64,000 nucleotides of DNA from Saprospiraceae bacterium (GTDB lineage: Bacteria; Bacteroidota; Bacteroidia; Chitinophagales; Saprospiraceae): the NCBI GenBank assembly GCA_027488935.1, contig JAIYAP010000001.1, positions 1 to 64,000 of the forward strand, in the 5' to 3' direction. Below the pieces are notes generated by a model, which saw only the letters and a program-made list of their open reading frames with translations, was not told the origin of the DNA and made no database searches. A program made the position numbers and the translations under genes. Positions 15,277-19,725 of the stretch are shown here, piece by piece (positions within the stretch are counted from its first letter, which is position 1; the number at the start of each line of letters is the position of its first letter).

Positions 15277-16914
15277 TTAACGCAACAACGTAACCGCCCC
15301 CGAAAACCGTTCCACCCTACCCCCAAACAACACCAAATCAGCCCAATACACATATACCCCCGGCAGTGCAATCCGCCCCCCTACCCGACCATCCCAACCC
15401 AAATTTTCAACATTGGGAAAAAAATCGGTCCGACTAAATACCCGCGAACCCCAGCGATCAAAGACATGAAATGCCTGTACTTCGGTTACGCAAGCGCCGC
15501 CAAAAACCGTAAAATAATCATTAAACCCATCATCGTCCGGCGAAAACACATTCGGTATAAATACGGCTTTACAGGGCAACACCTTTATCCGAACAGTATC
15601 CATCGCTGTACAAGTACCCAAAGTATCTTCCGCAATCAATATATAAGTAGTTGTTTCAGATGGTTTTGCTACCGGATCAGGGCAATCCGCGCAACTCAGT
15701 CCAATGGCTGGCTGCCAGATTAAAGCAACATGGGTGGTCCTGGAGACAAGGCTATTTAACTGAATCGAATCCCCCAATGCTAATTCTGTAAAATCTGGCG
15801 TTACGGACAAGGTCAACGGAACATCCGTAATCACCGTGGTAAAAATGGTGCTATCACAGCCAATTTCGTCTACCAGGCGATCCACATAATTGCCACTTTG
15901 ATCATAAAAATTCGCTCCTACCTGCACGCCCTCGCCTGCACACAAATAGATCGTTTGCCGGGTGGTATCAGGCACCTTTATGGTCAACTGTGTAAAAATC
16001 ATGCTATCACAGCCCGGCAACTCAATAGTATCGCGGTAAAAGCCTGTTTTTGTATAAAAATTGTTTAAAACCTGCACTGTATCACCCAGACAACGGGTAA
16101 AATTCTGCTGCAACGGCTGGTTAAACCATTTCAAAGTAGTCACCACCGTACTGTCATTGCAGCCTTGCCCAATCGGAAACAAGTCGGTATAAACACCCGG
16201 TTCGGTGTACAATTTTGTCCCAACTGGAAAACTTTCGCCGGCACAAATGGTCAATTCCTGGGTAGTAAGCGGGCTGCACAAATACAATTCAAAATCATCA
16301 ATCGCCAGGTCATTGCCACAAGCCCCTTTTGCATTGTTACTAAGCACCACCTCTGCTTCGGTCTGATCCATCGGCACATAAAACGTAAGCGCATATTGTT
16401 GCCACAAAGCCGTTGGTAGCAAGGGAATCGGCCCGGAACTGGTTTGGCCGAGCACCGCGCCCGTATTTACATCCCGCAATTCGAATAATATATCTGGCCG
16501 CACTTCCTGCCCGTTACAGTCCCCTGGAATTTGAACATTCATCGCCCAGCAGGAAAAAGTATATTTAGAACCACTGCAAAGTCCTGTCAAGCGCCGCCTG
16601 AAAAACACCCCTGGCTCCACACTGGCATCAAAAACCAGCATAAAACCATTGACATCGTTGGGCGTATGATCGAGTGAATTATGCCAAAAACTGCCATTTA
16701 CCGCACTGTTATTTACGACCACATAATTACCCGGTGCAATCGCTCCGAAATTATACGTGGTAGCATCGGCCGGCAGTTGCGGACCTAAATCGACGGCACC
16801 TGTACCGAACGTTTCGGAATACACAATGGGGCCTGGAATACCCGTGCAGAGTTGGGCATGCAGGAAATGTGCATTATTCAGAAAACAAAAAAGTAATATG
16901 ATACGCATCATCAT
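15277..16914 (-). CDS. T9SS-exported protein with gliding-motility-type C-terminal domain
   Basis: A 545-residue secreted protein. The signal peptide (about 1-20) ends in HAQ. A beta-sandwich of the carbohydrate-binding or adhesin type follows (about 25-210, with the D-L-A-I-D-D-F-E-L-Y ending common in such modules). Then come three or so repeats with the pattern T-I-C-A-G-E/D-x-V, each followed by a G-C-D-S-x-x segment, of the kind seen in Bacteroidota cell-surface proteins. The last ~95 residues, from IPNVFSPDDDGFND to WDGR and the final strands, match the type B sorting domain of gliding-motility-associated proteins. It is probably attached to the surface. The ligand is unknown. Three in-frame ATG codons begin the gene. 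Confidence 0.88.
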   Translation of the reverse strand: MMMRIILLFCFLNNAHFLHAQLCTGIPGPIVYSETFGTGAVDLGPQLPADATTYNFGAIAPGNYVVVNNSAVNGSFWHNSLDHTPNDVNGFMLVFDASVEPGVFFRRRLTGLCSGSKYTFSCWAMNVQIPGDCNGQEVRPDILFELRDVNTGAVLGQTSSGPIPLLPTALWQQYALTFYVPMDQTEAEVVLSNNAKGACGNDLAIDDFELYLCSPLTTQELTICAGESFPVGTKLYTEPGVYTDLFPIGQGCNDSTVVTTLKWFNQPLQQNFTRCLGDTVQVLNNFYTKTGFYRDTIELPGCDSMIFTQLTIKVPDTTRQTIYLCAGEGVQVGANFYDQSGNYVDRLVDEIGCDSTIFTTVITDVPLTLSVTPDFTELALGDSIQLNSLVSRTTHVALIWQPAIGLSCADCPDPVAKPSETTTYILIAEDTLGTCTAMDTVRIKVLPCKAVFIPNVFSPDDDGFNDYFTVFGGACVTEVQAFHVFDRWGSRVFSRTDFFPNVENLGWDGRVGGRIALPGVYVYWADLVLFGGRVERFSGAVTLLR

Positions 16915-16920
16915 AATCCA

Positions 16921-17000
16921 GGTCGGAAGGATCCCCCCACGTCGGAAGCGTCCGGGGACGCTTCCGACGTGGGCGAAATAGGCGGGACACCCTTCCGACC
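16921..17000. repeat. REP-like nested palindrome downstream of the RAYT gene
   Basis: A perfect 18-bp stem (16936-16953 and 16956-16973, two-base centre) contains the core ACGTCGGAAGCGTCC. An outer 10-bp perfect stem, GGTCGGAAGG (16921-16930) and CCTTCCGACC (16991-17000), encloses it. The same CCACGTCGGAAGCGTCC core recurs inside the neighbouring transposase gene. The layout fits REP/BIME elements mobilised by RAYT proteins. Confidence 0.85.
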
Positions 17001-17015
17001 TTCTGTTTTTACAGG

Positions 17016-17732
17016 TTATTCAAATTCAATTTCAAAATGATCCAAATCGGCCAAAATCTGGTTTCCAAAGAGGTAACGCTCAAATTCTGTCCGATTTCCA
17101 AACCAATTTAAAACTTGGTTTCGCTCCAGCAAGGTATTTCTTTTTGATATTAGGGCGTGAAAAGAAGAATGGGGATATGTTCTAAAATCCCTTACAAACC
17201 CATGTTTTTCAGGGTTTCTATGAATATAATAGACCAATTGCACGAAATAGGCTTCATCATGAACGGGTATCCGCCGAAAAGACTCCTCGAACAACCCGCC
17301 TGTTCGCCCATATTTCTTGTTAATGGTTTGGGTATAGGCATTAAACAAATTGGCAAACTGCGTACTGACCCGTTTTTCGGCAAGTTGGATTGCCACGTCG
17401 GAAGCGTCCCCCGGAGTCCTGGACACGTCGGAAGCGTTTTGAACGCTTCCGACGTGTCCAGGACTCCGGGGGACGCTTCCGACGTGGGGCTGGCGTTCGT
17501 GCTCATACCAATGGTTCACAACCGACGCCGACCGAATGCGCACCAACAAATGAAAATGATTTTTTAACAAACAATAGGCATACGTTTCCGCTACCGGATG
17601 AATATGCTTGGTAAATTTGTTTAAAAACAAGGCAAAACTGCGCTCATCCTTAAACAAATCCTCGCCATTAATGCCCCTGTTATAAATGTGGTAAAATACC
17701 CCACAACGCATGCGATAAGTGTGCTTCTTCAC
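17016..17732 (-). CDS. REP-associated tyrosine transposase (Y1/IS200-like RAYT) with in-frame palindrome
   Basis: A single-strand DNA transposase of the HUH Y1 class. The 238-residue protein shows the HUH motif N-H-F-H-L-L-V (H59, H61) and the RAYT hallmark Y-I-H-R-N-P at 169-174. QFANLFNAYTQTINKKYGRT precedes the latter. Residues about 82-113 (for example HVGSVPRSPGHVGSV) are not family sequence. They are the translation of a 95-bp perfect palindrome of the REP type, inserted in frame between the HUH strand and the next helix. The frame stays open, so the protein may remain active. Translation appears to start at GTG 17732, with ATG 17711 as an alternative. The matching REP hairpin lies just downstream. 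Confidence 0.92.
   Translation of the reverse strand: MKKHTYRMRCGVFYHIYNRGINGEDLFKDERSFALFLNKFTKHIHPVAETYAYCLLKNHFHLLVRIRSASVVNHWYEHERQPHVGSVPRSPGHVGSVQNASDVSRTPGDASDVAIQLAEKRVSTQFANLFNAYTQTINKKYGRTGGLFEESFRRIPVHDEAYFVQLVYYIHRNPEKHGFVRDFRTYPHSSFHALISKRNTLLERNQVLNWFGNRTEFERYLFGNQILADLDHFEIEFE
17393..17487. repeat. 95-bp perfect palindrome (two REP cores per arm) inside the RAYT gene
   Basis: Arms 17393-17438 and 17442-17487 are exact 46-bp reverse complements around a three-base loop. Each arm carries the core ACGTCGGAAGCGT twice, giving four cores in all. CCACGTCGGAAGCGTCC is shared with the hairpin at 16936-16973. It is translated as part of the transposase. Confidence 0.95.
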
Positions 17733-17891: not shown

Positions 17892-17955
17892 TGACCGAAC
17901 GTGCATGAACCATTATAAATGCCTAGTTCAACACGAAATTAAATTCTATACAGAC

Positions 17956-19725
17956 ATGCAACTTCTTTCCCGCATCTCCATCAGCTGCCTGACATTGGTA
18001 CTGCTCGCTCTCAGCGCTTGCACCAGCCCGACAACTCAAAAACAACCTGTTTCCATGGATCAGAATTGGTGGAAAGAAGCCGTCGTATATCAAATTTACC
18101 CACGCTCTTTTAAAGACACAAATGGCGACGGCATCGGCGATTTAAAAGGTGTCCTCGAAAAACTGGATTACATCAAAAGCCTGGGCATTGATGTCGTTTG
18201 GCTAAATCCCATTTTTGCCTCCCCTAATGACGATAATGGATACGATATCAGCGATTACCGCGATATTATGAAAGATTTTGGCACGATGGCCGACTTCGAT
18301 GCCCTGCTCAAAGGCATGCACGAGCGCGGCATCAAACTGGTGCTCGACCTGGTGGCCAACCATTGCAGCGACGAACACGCCTGGTTCAAGGAATCACGCA
18401 AATCACGCGACAATCCTTACCGCGATTATTTCCACTGGTGGCCCGCAGAAAAAGGAAAACCCAATCCGCGTATCAGCTTTTTCGATGTTAACAACGATGC
18501 CTGGAAATACGATTCTATTACCAATGCCTATTATTTACACTATTTTTCCCAAAAACAGCCCGATTTAAACTGGGAAAACCCTAAGGTGCGGAAGGAAATC
18601 TTCGACATGATGAATTTCTGGTTCGATAAAGGCATCGACGGTTTCCGCATGGATGTAATTTCGATCATCGGTAAAGACACCACTTTTCCGCCCATCCCCG
18701 CGCAATACGCCAACGACGTTTTCCAATATTATGCTGAAGGCCAGGGAAATCGCACCCATACTTATTTGCAGGAAATGTACGCGCAATCTCTTAGCAAATA
18801 CAATGTTATGAGTGTCGCGGAAGGCGCTGGCGTAACGGATAAAACCGCACTCGATTTTGTGGATGCCAATCGCAAGGAACTCAACATGTTATACCACTTC
18901 GAAGGGGTGAGTTATGGCTACCTCAAAGGAAAATTCAAAACACCCGACCCAAAAGGGTATGATTTGGTGGGTTTTAAAGATATTTATACCAAATGGAATG
19001 ATGTTTTTGCCGAAAAAGGTTGGGGTACGATTTACCTCGGCAACCACGATCAACCCCGCATGCTCACCCGATGGGGCAATGACACACCCGAATTCGGTAC
19101 GGTATCCTCCAAAATGCTGACGACCTTTTTGATGACCATGCGCGCTACGCCCTATTATTATTTTGGCGATGAATTGGGCATGAACAACATCAAATTTGAT
19201 CGTATTGAAGATTACAAAGACATTGAATCCATCAATAATTACAAAATTGTCAAAGATAAAGGGGAAGACCTTCAAGCATTCCTGGATGCTCAGAAAATTT
19301 CAGCGCGCGACAATGGACGCACGCCTTTTCAGTGGGATAACACATCGAATGCAGGGTTCACCACCGGCACACCTTGGTTGAAAGTCAATCCAAATTATAC
19401 TGCGGTAAATGTGCAAGCGCAAGAAGCAGATCCTAACTCTACGCTCAATTATTTCCGTAAAATTGTTCAACTGCGCAAACAGAACCCTGCCTTAATTTAC
19501 GGAAAATATCAGTTGCTCGACCGAGAAAACCCATCCGTTTACGCGTATACCCGGGAATGGGAAGGCCGGAAATATTTAGTTTTGCTCAATTTTAAAGCCC
19601 AAAATGCAGCAGCAAACCTGAATCTAGACCTTTCAAACGCAAAAATCGTCATCAACAATTACCCGGACGCAAAACCTGCTACCAGTCTGCGCCCCTATGA
19701 AGCGATGGTATTGGAGTTGAAATAA
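17956..19725 (+). CDS. alpha-glucosidase / alpha-amylase family GH13 lipoprotein
   Basis: Hydrolyses alpha-1,4 or alpha-1,6 glucosidic bonds of malto-oligosaccharides, probably on the outside of the cell or in the periplasm. The 589-residue product begins with a lipoprotein signal whose lipobox is L-S-A-C (Cys22). The GH13 motifs follow in order: VVYQIYPRSF, then LVLDLVANHCSDEH, the nucleophile region GIDGFRMDVIS, the acid/base region VAEG and the LGNHDQPR transition-state stabiliser. The overall layout is closest to oligo-1,6-glucosidases. The in-frame ATG at 17905 was not used because the lipobox is best placed from 17956. No sus-type transporter lies nearby. Confidence 0.9.
   Translation: MQLLSRISISCLTLVLLALSACTSPTTQKQPVSMDQNWWKEAVVYQIYPRSFKDTNGDGIGDLKGVLEKLDYIKSLGIDVVWLNPIFASPNDDNGYDISDYRDIMKDFGTMADFDALLKGMHERGIKLVLDLVANHCSDEHAWFKESRKSRDNPYRDYFHWWPAEKGKPNPRISFFDVNNDAWKYDSITNAYYLHYFSQKQPDLNWENPKVRKEIFDMMNFWFDKGIDGFRMDVISIIGKDTTFPPIPAQYANDVFQYYAEGQGNRTHTYLQEMYAQSLSKYNVMSVAEGAGVTDKTALDFVDANRKELNMLYHFEGVSYGYLKGKFKTPDPKGYDLVGFKDIYTKWNDVFAEKGWGTIYLGNHDQPRMLTRWGNDTPEFGTVSSKMLTTFLMTMRATPYYYFGDELGMNNIKFDRIEDYKDIESINNYKIVKDKGEDLQAFLDAQKISARDNGRTPFQWDNTSNAGFTTGTPWLKVNPNYTAVNVQAQEADPNSTLNYFRKIVQLRKQNPALIYGKYQLLDRENPSVYAYTREWEGRKYLVLLNFKAQNAAANLNLDLSNAKIVINNYPDAKPATSLRPYEAMVLELK

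Follow-up and report, generated by a model that had tools for sequence, protein, structure and literature searches.

How does a transposase-like gene come to include in its coding sequence an in-frame copy of the repeat found beside it? The question is raised by a stretch of 64,000 nucleotides (nt) from Saprospiraceae bacterium (GenBank assembly GCA_027488935.1, contig JAIYAP010000001.1, positions 1–64,000), hereafter the window. It encodes a RAYT-like protein, a putative tyrosine transposase of the HUH/Y1 type associated with repetitive extragenic palindromes (REPs). A long palindrome lies in frame in the linker that follows the HUH motif, and it shares its core with a REP-like hairpin just 3′ of the gene. 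An initial annotation of the window had reported the shared core and the in-frame palindrome with its 46-bp arms, and both were confirmed, with the coordinates and frame as annotated (Table 1). A palindrome in this linker is recurrent in the gene family and is not a private accident of the window gene, and the linker and flanking copies turn over together.

Palindromes in the gene family

Related genes were collected from 60 relatives and then from 396 genomes of the order by a profile search (E ≤ 1e-25) in which each genome contributed no more than about seven scored candidates. One locus, the truncated G023 orthologue, came from a related-locus search of genome contigs. G000 denotes the genome that holds the window, other G numbers denote genomes of relatives, and L numbers denote the loci examined. 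Of 139 loci, 125 had an open reading frame (ORF) matched by models of both halves of the protein, and 122 of these were distinct, the window gene included. The 14 loci without a two-half ORF were left out, and the hit G009:C135 was also not included. Palindromes were defined by arms of at least 12 nt, a loop of at most 8 nt, and at most one mismatch. Flanks were 800 nt per side, some shortened by contig ends.

The linker that follows the HUH motif contains a palindrome in 29 of the 122 distinct intact genes, about a quarter. The linker makes up 15% of the length yet holds 31 of the 38 palindromes within ORFs (binomial probability 2.7e-19, a figure that ignores kinship and is computed on palindromes that are not independent). 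Palindrome density is 2.64 per kb in the linker (31 in the 29 genes), 0.14 in the N-terminal half (3), and 0.09 in the C-terminal half (4), compared with 0.96 in the upstream flanks (89) and 1.08 in the downstream flanks (96). Dinucleotide-shuffled linkers contained a palindrome with arms of at least 12 nt in a mean of 0.36 of 122 genes versus the 29 observed. Among the seven palindromes in ORFs outside the linker, five have arms of 12–14 nt and flank scores of 8–14. That of L112 is 895 nt from the end of an ORF of unusual length, and the one in L165 spans the end of the coding sequence and matches its own flank.

Linker length ranges from 10 to 121 residues across the family. Relatives lacking exactly 31–32 residues at this site, which the initial annotation had named as support for an insertion, were not found. 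Loci of the same genus carry differing palindromes at the linker site in G007 (L010), G026 (L014), G027 (L013), and G023 (L012/L039, the orthologue whose contig stops within the palindrome). In L013 (positions 1480–1560, G027:C239), the first half of the RAYT gene is missing and the remainder starts at about the linker REP, apparently next to where another gene ends; the arrangement resembles a deletion with its end point at the REP. L045 and L155 each have two palindrome copies within a single linker.

Linker and flanking copies

Most linker palindromes resemble sequence in the flanks of their own genes. The central parts of the linker palindromes scored a mean of 25.9 against their own flanks and 10.2 against the flanks of other genes (99th percentile, 23). 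Matches to the own flank, all scoring at least 23, were found for 24 of the 29 linker palindromes. The own flank ranked first of 122 for 18 and in the top three for 24. Arm mismatches are present in 3 of the 24 linker palindromes with a flank match and in 3 of the 5 without one (p = 0.046), which is weak evidence that palindromes lacking partners decay.

The palindromes are read in all three phases, with the center on codon position 1 in 14 genes, on position 2 in 10, and on position 3 in 5. Three phases need at least two changes and hence at least three origins or reframing events. With the linker removed, a tree of the 122 proteins, built by a quick method and with many weak forks, requires 14 changes between presence and absence of the palindrome, at least seven of them forced by starred branches, and four changes of codon phase among the 29 palindromes. 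The window clade (L009, L010, L014, L041, L042) has one common phase, which makes a single old insertion likely in this clade. Its sister gene L011, from G004, has a non-palindromic linker of similar length (56 vs 55 residues), and the G004 genome has no match to the palindrome pattern. The initial annotation had held that close homologs with a similar linker encoded by non-palindromic DNA would speak against an insertion. The window gene and L011 are such a pair, but the wider sample still favors insertion.

The two kinds of copy change in concert. Thirty-seven pairs of genes, both with linker palindromes and at least 55% identical outside the linker, were drawn from 20 genes. Mean scores were 13.6 between the two linkers, 27.7 and 26.9 between each linker and its own flank, and 13.8 and 15.6 between each linker and the other flank. 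In 28 of the 37 pairs, each linker was closer to its own flank than to the linker of its partner. L027 and L101 share 84% identity outside the linker. Their linker palindromes are dissimilar (score 5 of 33), and the own flank provides a match for each (29 and 33 of 33). For L027, which has just 20 nt of upstream sequence, the scan listed no flanking palindrome. The G000 and G023 genes show nine differences, counted by eye, in the approximately 225 nt that precede the palindrome, but their palindromes differ in spacer and center. A change of specificity could be tested directly with L027, L101, and similar pairs. The single tolerated insertion proposed in the initial annotation does not account for a recurrent site, three phases, and concerted change of linker and flanks, and a single accident is ruled out by the recurrence across the family.

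L025 and L026 are 97% identical outside the linker. Their long downstream palindromes differ and each is perfect or nearly so, which suggests fast arm-to-arm correction. Template-switch correction of palindromes can yield compensatory changes in the arms, and for this reason such changes were not taken as evidence of selection.

Palindromes with arms of at least 20 nt number 46 in the examined loci, and two of them overlap the end of the coding sequence (L036, L137). The linker and flanking palindromes of L036 have arms of 50–59 nt. The left arm of its downstream palindrome starts with the final 25 coding nt plus the stop codon, which are mirrored across the REP core. These few cases suggest that local DNA was copied into the second arm. 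HUH enzymes leave a 3′-OH able to prime synthesis (PMC8266576). Arms longer than the REP core seem to mirror local DNA, which would fit a hairpin 3′ end, freed by the cut of the enzyme, that primes fold-back copying, a possible route to long arms.

The window gene

The motifs described in the initial annotation are present in the window protein, with NHFH at residues 58–61 and YIHRNP from residue 169, and a PHSS motif is found at the C-terminus. NCBIfam NF047646 (REP-associated tyrosine transposase) aligned to the window protein at 48.1 bits (1.1e-12), under the cut-off of 80, and was matched by five of five alignment members. Profile comparison with PDB 4er8 (TnpA_REP) gave a weak match (E = 0.0013), and a Pfam scan of the protein detected no family match. 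AlphaFold prediction from the single sequence had a mean predicted local distance difference test (pLDDT) score of 35, too low for use. The closest paralogs of this transposase in G000 are approximately 40% identical. The gene is flanked on one side by a gene that carries a CHU_C type IX secretion signal and on the other by an alpha-amylase gene.

The initial annotation had treated the in-gene palindrome as a single 95-bp element. Its arms are perfect, but the structure is nested, an outer REP half-pair with a mirrored spacer enclosing a 33-bp REP, and is therefore not one REP unit. The feet of the window palindromes are CCAC at the 5′ end and GTGG at the 3′ end, the reverse of the order in the GT[AG]G REP foot, and many other G000 copies carry ACAC/GTGT at their feet.

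Table 1. Coordinates of the transposase gene, its palindromes, and adjacent genes in the window
Feature	Position	Strand	Description
RAYT-like HUH/Y1 transposase gene	17016..17732	minus	238 codons, GTG start, TAA stop; assigned from motifs and weak profile matches
Nested in-frame palindrome	17393..17487	.	95 bp, 46-bp arms, 3-nt center; codons 82-114
Arms of the nested palindrome	17393-17438 and 17442-17487		46 nt each, 100% complementary, 3 nt between
Inner REP-like palindrome, 33 bp	17424..17456	.	CACGTCGGAAGCGTT(TTG)AACGCTTCCGACGTG; encodes HVGSVQNASDV in the frame of the gene
REP-like hairpin 3′ of the gene	16936..16973	.	18-nt arms, 2-nt loop
Outer imperfect REP half-pair around the 3′ hairpin	16920..17001	.	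18 nt, 83% complementary; nested arrangement
CHU_C type IX secretion signal gene	15277-16914		neighboring gene
Alpha-amylase gene	17905-19725		neighboring gene

Copies elsewhere in the genomes

A genome-wide count of the palindrome had been proposed in the initial annotation. The 15-mer ACGTCGGAAGCGTCC occurs in 23 copies in the 6.28-Mb genome of G000, a draft assembly of 88 contigs, and the reversed-pattern control in none. A looser half-site gave 73 exact matches and 96 with at most one mismatch, for which the control gave 32. Twenty stretches outside the window, which cover all exact half-site places except C57 and include C63 (one-mismatch half-sites only), contain 28 half-site clusters, five of which are single half-sites. 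Clusters of at least two half-sites number 25 in the genome, the two of the window included. Several are nested, with plus half-sites to the left and minus half-sites to the right of a shared center and with mirrored spacers. RAYT/TnpA_REP genes are recognized by cognate repeats beside the gene and elsewhere in the genome, and both were found for the window gene. The linker palindrome of the second G000 RAYT (C10, L088) recurs once elsewhere in the genome, at two mismatches.

A second intragenic REP of G000 is located in L083 (positions 1557–1664, G000:C70), where REP half-sites lie in frame within a metallophosphatase/5′-nucleotidase gene. The cluster directly follows what we take, from its motif, to be a twin-arginine signal, a probable signal peptide. 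For the other stretches, the annotation consisted of a list of stop-to-stop ORFs.

Cores were searched in 10 genomes with a degenerate 31-nt pattern at up to two mismatches, and forward matches, some of them overlapping, were counted. There were 13 in G000, 16 in G007, 4 in G008, 4 in G023, 2 in G026, 38 in G027, 13 in G226, and 19 in G248. None were detected in G004 or G047, and the control pattern was absent from all 10 genomes. Among the matches listed, the predominant cores were GGAAGCGT in G000 and G023, GGAAGGGTT in G007 and G008, and GGCAGGGTT in G027, and G000 additionally has some GGAAGGGT cores. The cores of G226 and G248 are known as counts alone and those of G023 in part. G008 has four palindromes of the G007 type, yet the search of relatives found no related transposase there; these REPs were possibly left behind without their enzyme.

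Interpretation

The preferred reading, given a probability of about 0.55, is that REP copies land in a single tolerant loop and are then overwritten as the cognate REP changes. The gene product would be a REP-associated HUH/Y1 transposase with a cognate repeat of approximately 33 bp. The window protein probably makes the copies and may recognize single-stranded hairpins, by analogy with characterized TnpA_REP proteins. Copies would land near and inside the transposase gene. Those inside would be retained almost exclusively in the loop that joins the HUH strand to the next helix, putatively beta-3 and alpha-C, because extra peptide there would leave the enzyme intact; the loop itself would be merely tolerant. 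The linker copy would be replaced or corrected once the cognate REP family of the genome changes, and linker and flanks would thereby stay alike. In favor of this reading are the bias in palindrome position, the resemblance of linkers to their own flanks, the multiple insertions or reframings, the concerted turnover, and the differing predominant cores of the genomes.

Several observations weigh against this reading. Linker palindromes are absent from 93 of the 122 genes, and a flanking palindrome does not predict one (23 of 83 genes with a flanking palindrome and 6 of 39 without, p = 0.17). Nine of the 37 pairs lack the concerted pattern (four with L014, three with L088, L009/L010, and L092/L093), and the 37 pairs are not independent because only 20 genes make them up. 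No own-flank match within 800 nt was found for 5 of the 29 linker palindromes (L014, L061, L088, L155, L166), of which that of L166, with a 12-nt arm, may be a chance occurrence. The own flank of the window gene ranked only second, with a score of 23 versus 27 for the flank of the G007 gene. Some linker copies stand nearly alone in their genomes. In G026, the linker copy is the sole exact match, and one other place matches at two mismatches. Both copies found in G300 sit in the linker. The linker copy of G375 is the sole match at up to three mismatches and is a perfect palindrome, where a passive insert would be expected to decay.

A doubtful alternative casts the linker palindrome as a functional component of the system. 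It would be a protected internal copy that recurs across the order and changes along with the flanking and genomic copies whenever the specificity of the enzyme changes.

Autoregulation is likewise unlikely. The protein would bind a hairpin in its gene or mRNA, or the hairpin would stall translation or be cut by RNase III, and the transposase would be kept scarce. Selection would then keep the linker copy, which would change with the specificity of the protein. The RNA of the 121-nt palindrome region, with its 46-bp stem, folds at −105.6 kcal/mol, compared with a mean of −42.0 (standard deviation 3.8) for 200 shuffles. The lone linker copies of G375 and G300, the sole exact copy of G026, and the tracking of flanks by linkers are also consistent with autoregulation, and Di Nocera et al. 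(2013, PMC3733652) suggest that REP hairpins can lower RAYT expression, as seen with IS200. The many family genes without a linker palindrome argue against it, as do the more frequent mismatches of partnerless linker palindromes, which resemble decay. In addition, the hairpin lies far inside the coding region, where ribosomes unwind RNA.

It is quite improbable that the linker REP is a master copy, the source of the other copies and hard to lose without losing the enzyme. Linker and genomic copies have a common core in G000, G007, and G027, and the persistence of linker copies alone in G375 and G300, and as the sole exact copy in G026, would suit a master copy. However, the linker lacks a palindrome in 60 of the 83 genes that have flanking ones, and the direction of copying is not readable from these sequences.

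Selection on the protein alone, with the encoded peptide mattering and the DNA palindrome a by-product, is more improbable still. Twelve of the 14 phase-0 linker palindromes, with the kinship among them retained, encode [DN]-[LF]-x-x-[FL]-x-x-L-x-x-L, and an alternative phase is stop-free in 11 of the 14 cases, as might be expected if the peptide were selected. The other two phases give unrelated peptides in 15 genes, a peptide needs no perfect DNA palindrome, and the linker peptides change along with the flanking DNA.

Chance or an artifact of draft assembly, which the 88 contigs of G000 and the broken G023 contig might suggest, is refuted by the family sample, in which separate genomes share the architecture (one of them, G007, in 9 contigs) and the shuffled linkers almost never reproduce it.

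Relation to known systems

The palindrome and the motifs of the family were compared with described TnpA_REP subclasses, using parts of each source cited. Subclass 2.4 has REPs inside the gene between HuH and Y and includes Bacteroidetes among its hosts (PMC6006769, 2018). The family described here is similar in its in-gene position (29 of 122), its flanking copies, and its occurrence in Bacteroidetes. It differs from subclass 2.4, which has YIxNNP, a W, and no C-terminal extension, in having YIHxNP, F for W, and an SS extension (PMC6006769). Most of its flanking palindromes also lack the GT[AG]G foot of subclass 2.4 and of RAYT repeats generally; a GT[AG]G-like string stands at the foot of 26 of 185, non-REP palindromes included. 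The family fits or nearly fits subclass 2.6 in its Bacteroidetes hosts, a YIH[QN]NP-like motif, an SS extension, and “atypical secondary structures” flanking the gene, but has NHFH and F where the subclass has NH[LIV]H and W (PMC6006769). The portions of PMC6006769 drawn on here do not mention in-gene REPs for subclass 2.6. The HuH–Y distance does not discriminate, with a median of 85 here, 82 for subclass 2.6, and 88 for subclass 2.4 (PMC6006769).

Motif frequencies in the family were obtained with simple regular expressions and without labeled subclass reference sequences. NHFH is present in 108 of 122 proteins, and the expression found no HUH motif in 2. The tyrosine motif is YIHxNP in 75 and a variant in 38, with none found in 9. 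The presumed W position is F in 113, and SS or TS occurs within 40 residues past the Y motif in 107. By description and without labeled sequences, the motifs appear to fit subclass 2.6 better than 2.4, though not fully.

Palindromic repeats that sit in frame within genes have precedents in the palindromic elements of Rickettsia and in further intragenic REPs (Di Nocera et al. 2013, PMC3733652). The examples in the parts of that paper drawn on here are host genes such as uvrA, uvrB, and recB, whereas the palindromes described here are in the gene of the associated transposase and at one recurrent site. The window palindrome has CGTC near its end, as do CGTC-tagged REPs. Those REPs have an 8–9-bp stem starting with AT and a CCA tail (PMC3733652), in contrast to the GG start, arms of approximately 16 bp, and associated transposase seen here. 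Membership in the CGTC superfamily is ruled out by the stem, which starts GGAAG and has longer arms. TIRYT genes are also RAYT-like and flanked by palindromes other than GTAG REPs. They have long inverted repeats on their flanks, and a linker copy is not mentioned for them in the parts of PMC3733652 drawn on here.

In the parts of the literature covered by the search, no report was found of three-phase insertion, of linkers and flanks that change in concert, or of linker copies that stand alone in their genomes. The in-gene REP is of a kind already described; the measured three-phase insertion and concerted turnover appear to be the new part. The mechanisms of REP dissemination are described as poorly understood (PMC8266576, 2021), and this family bears on how REPs spread and how transposase and repeat stay matched. 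Here, a single ORF contains both enzyme and repeat, and the repeat has been replaced outright in some close relatives. The system is real and recurrent, with testable coevolution, and the association looks like a recurring, fast-changing partnership and not a one-off.
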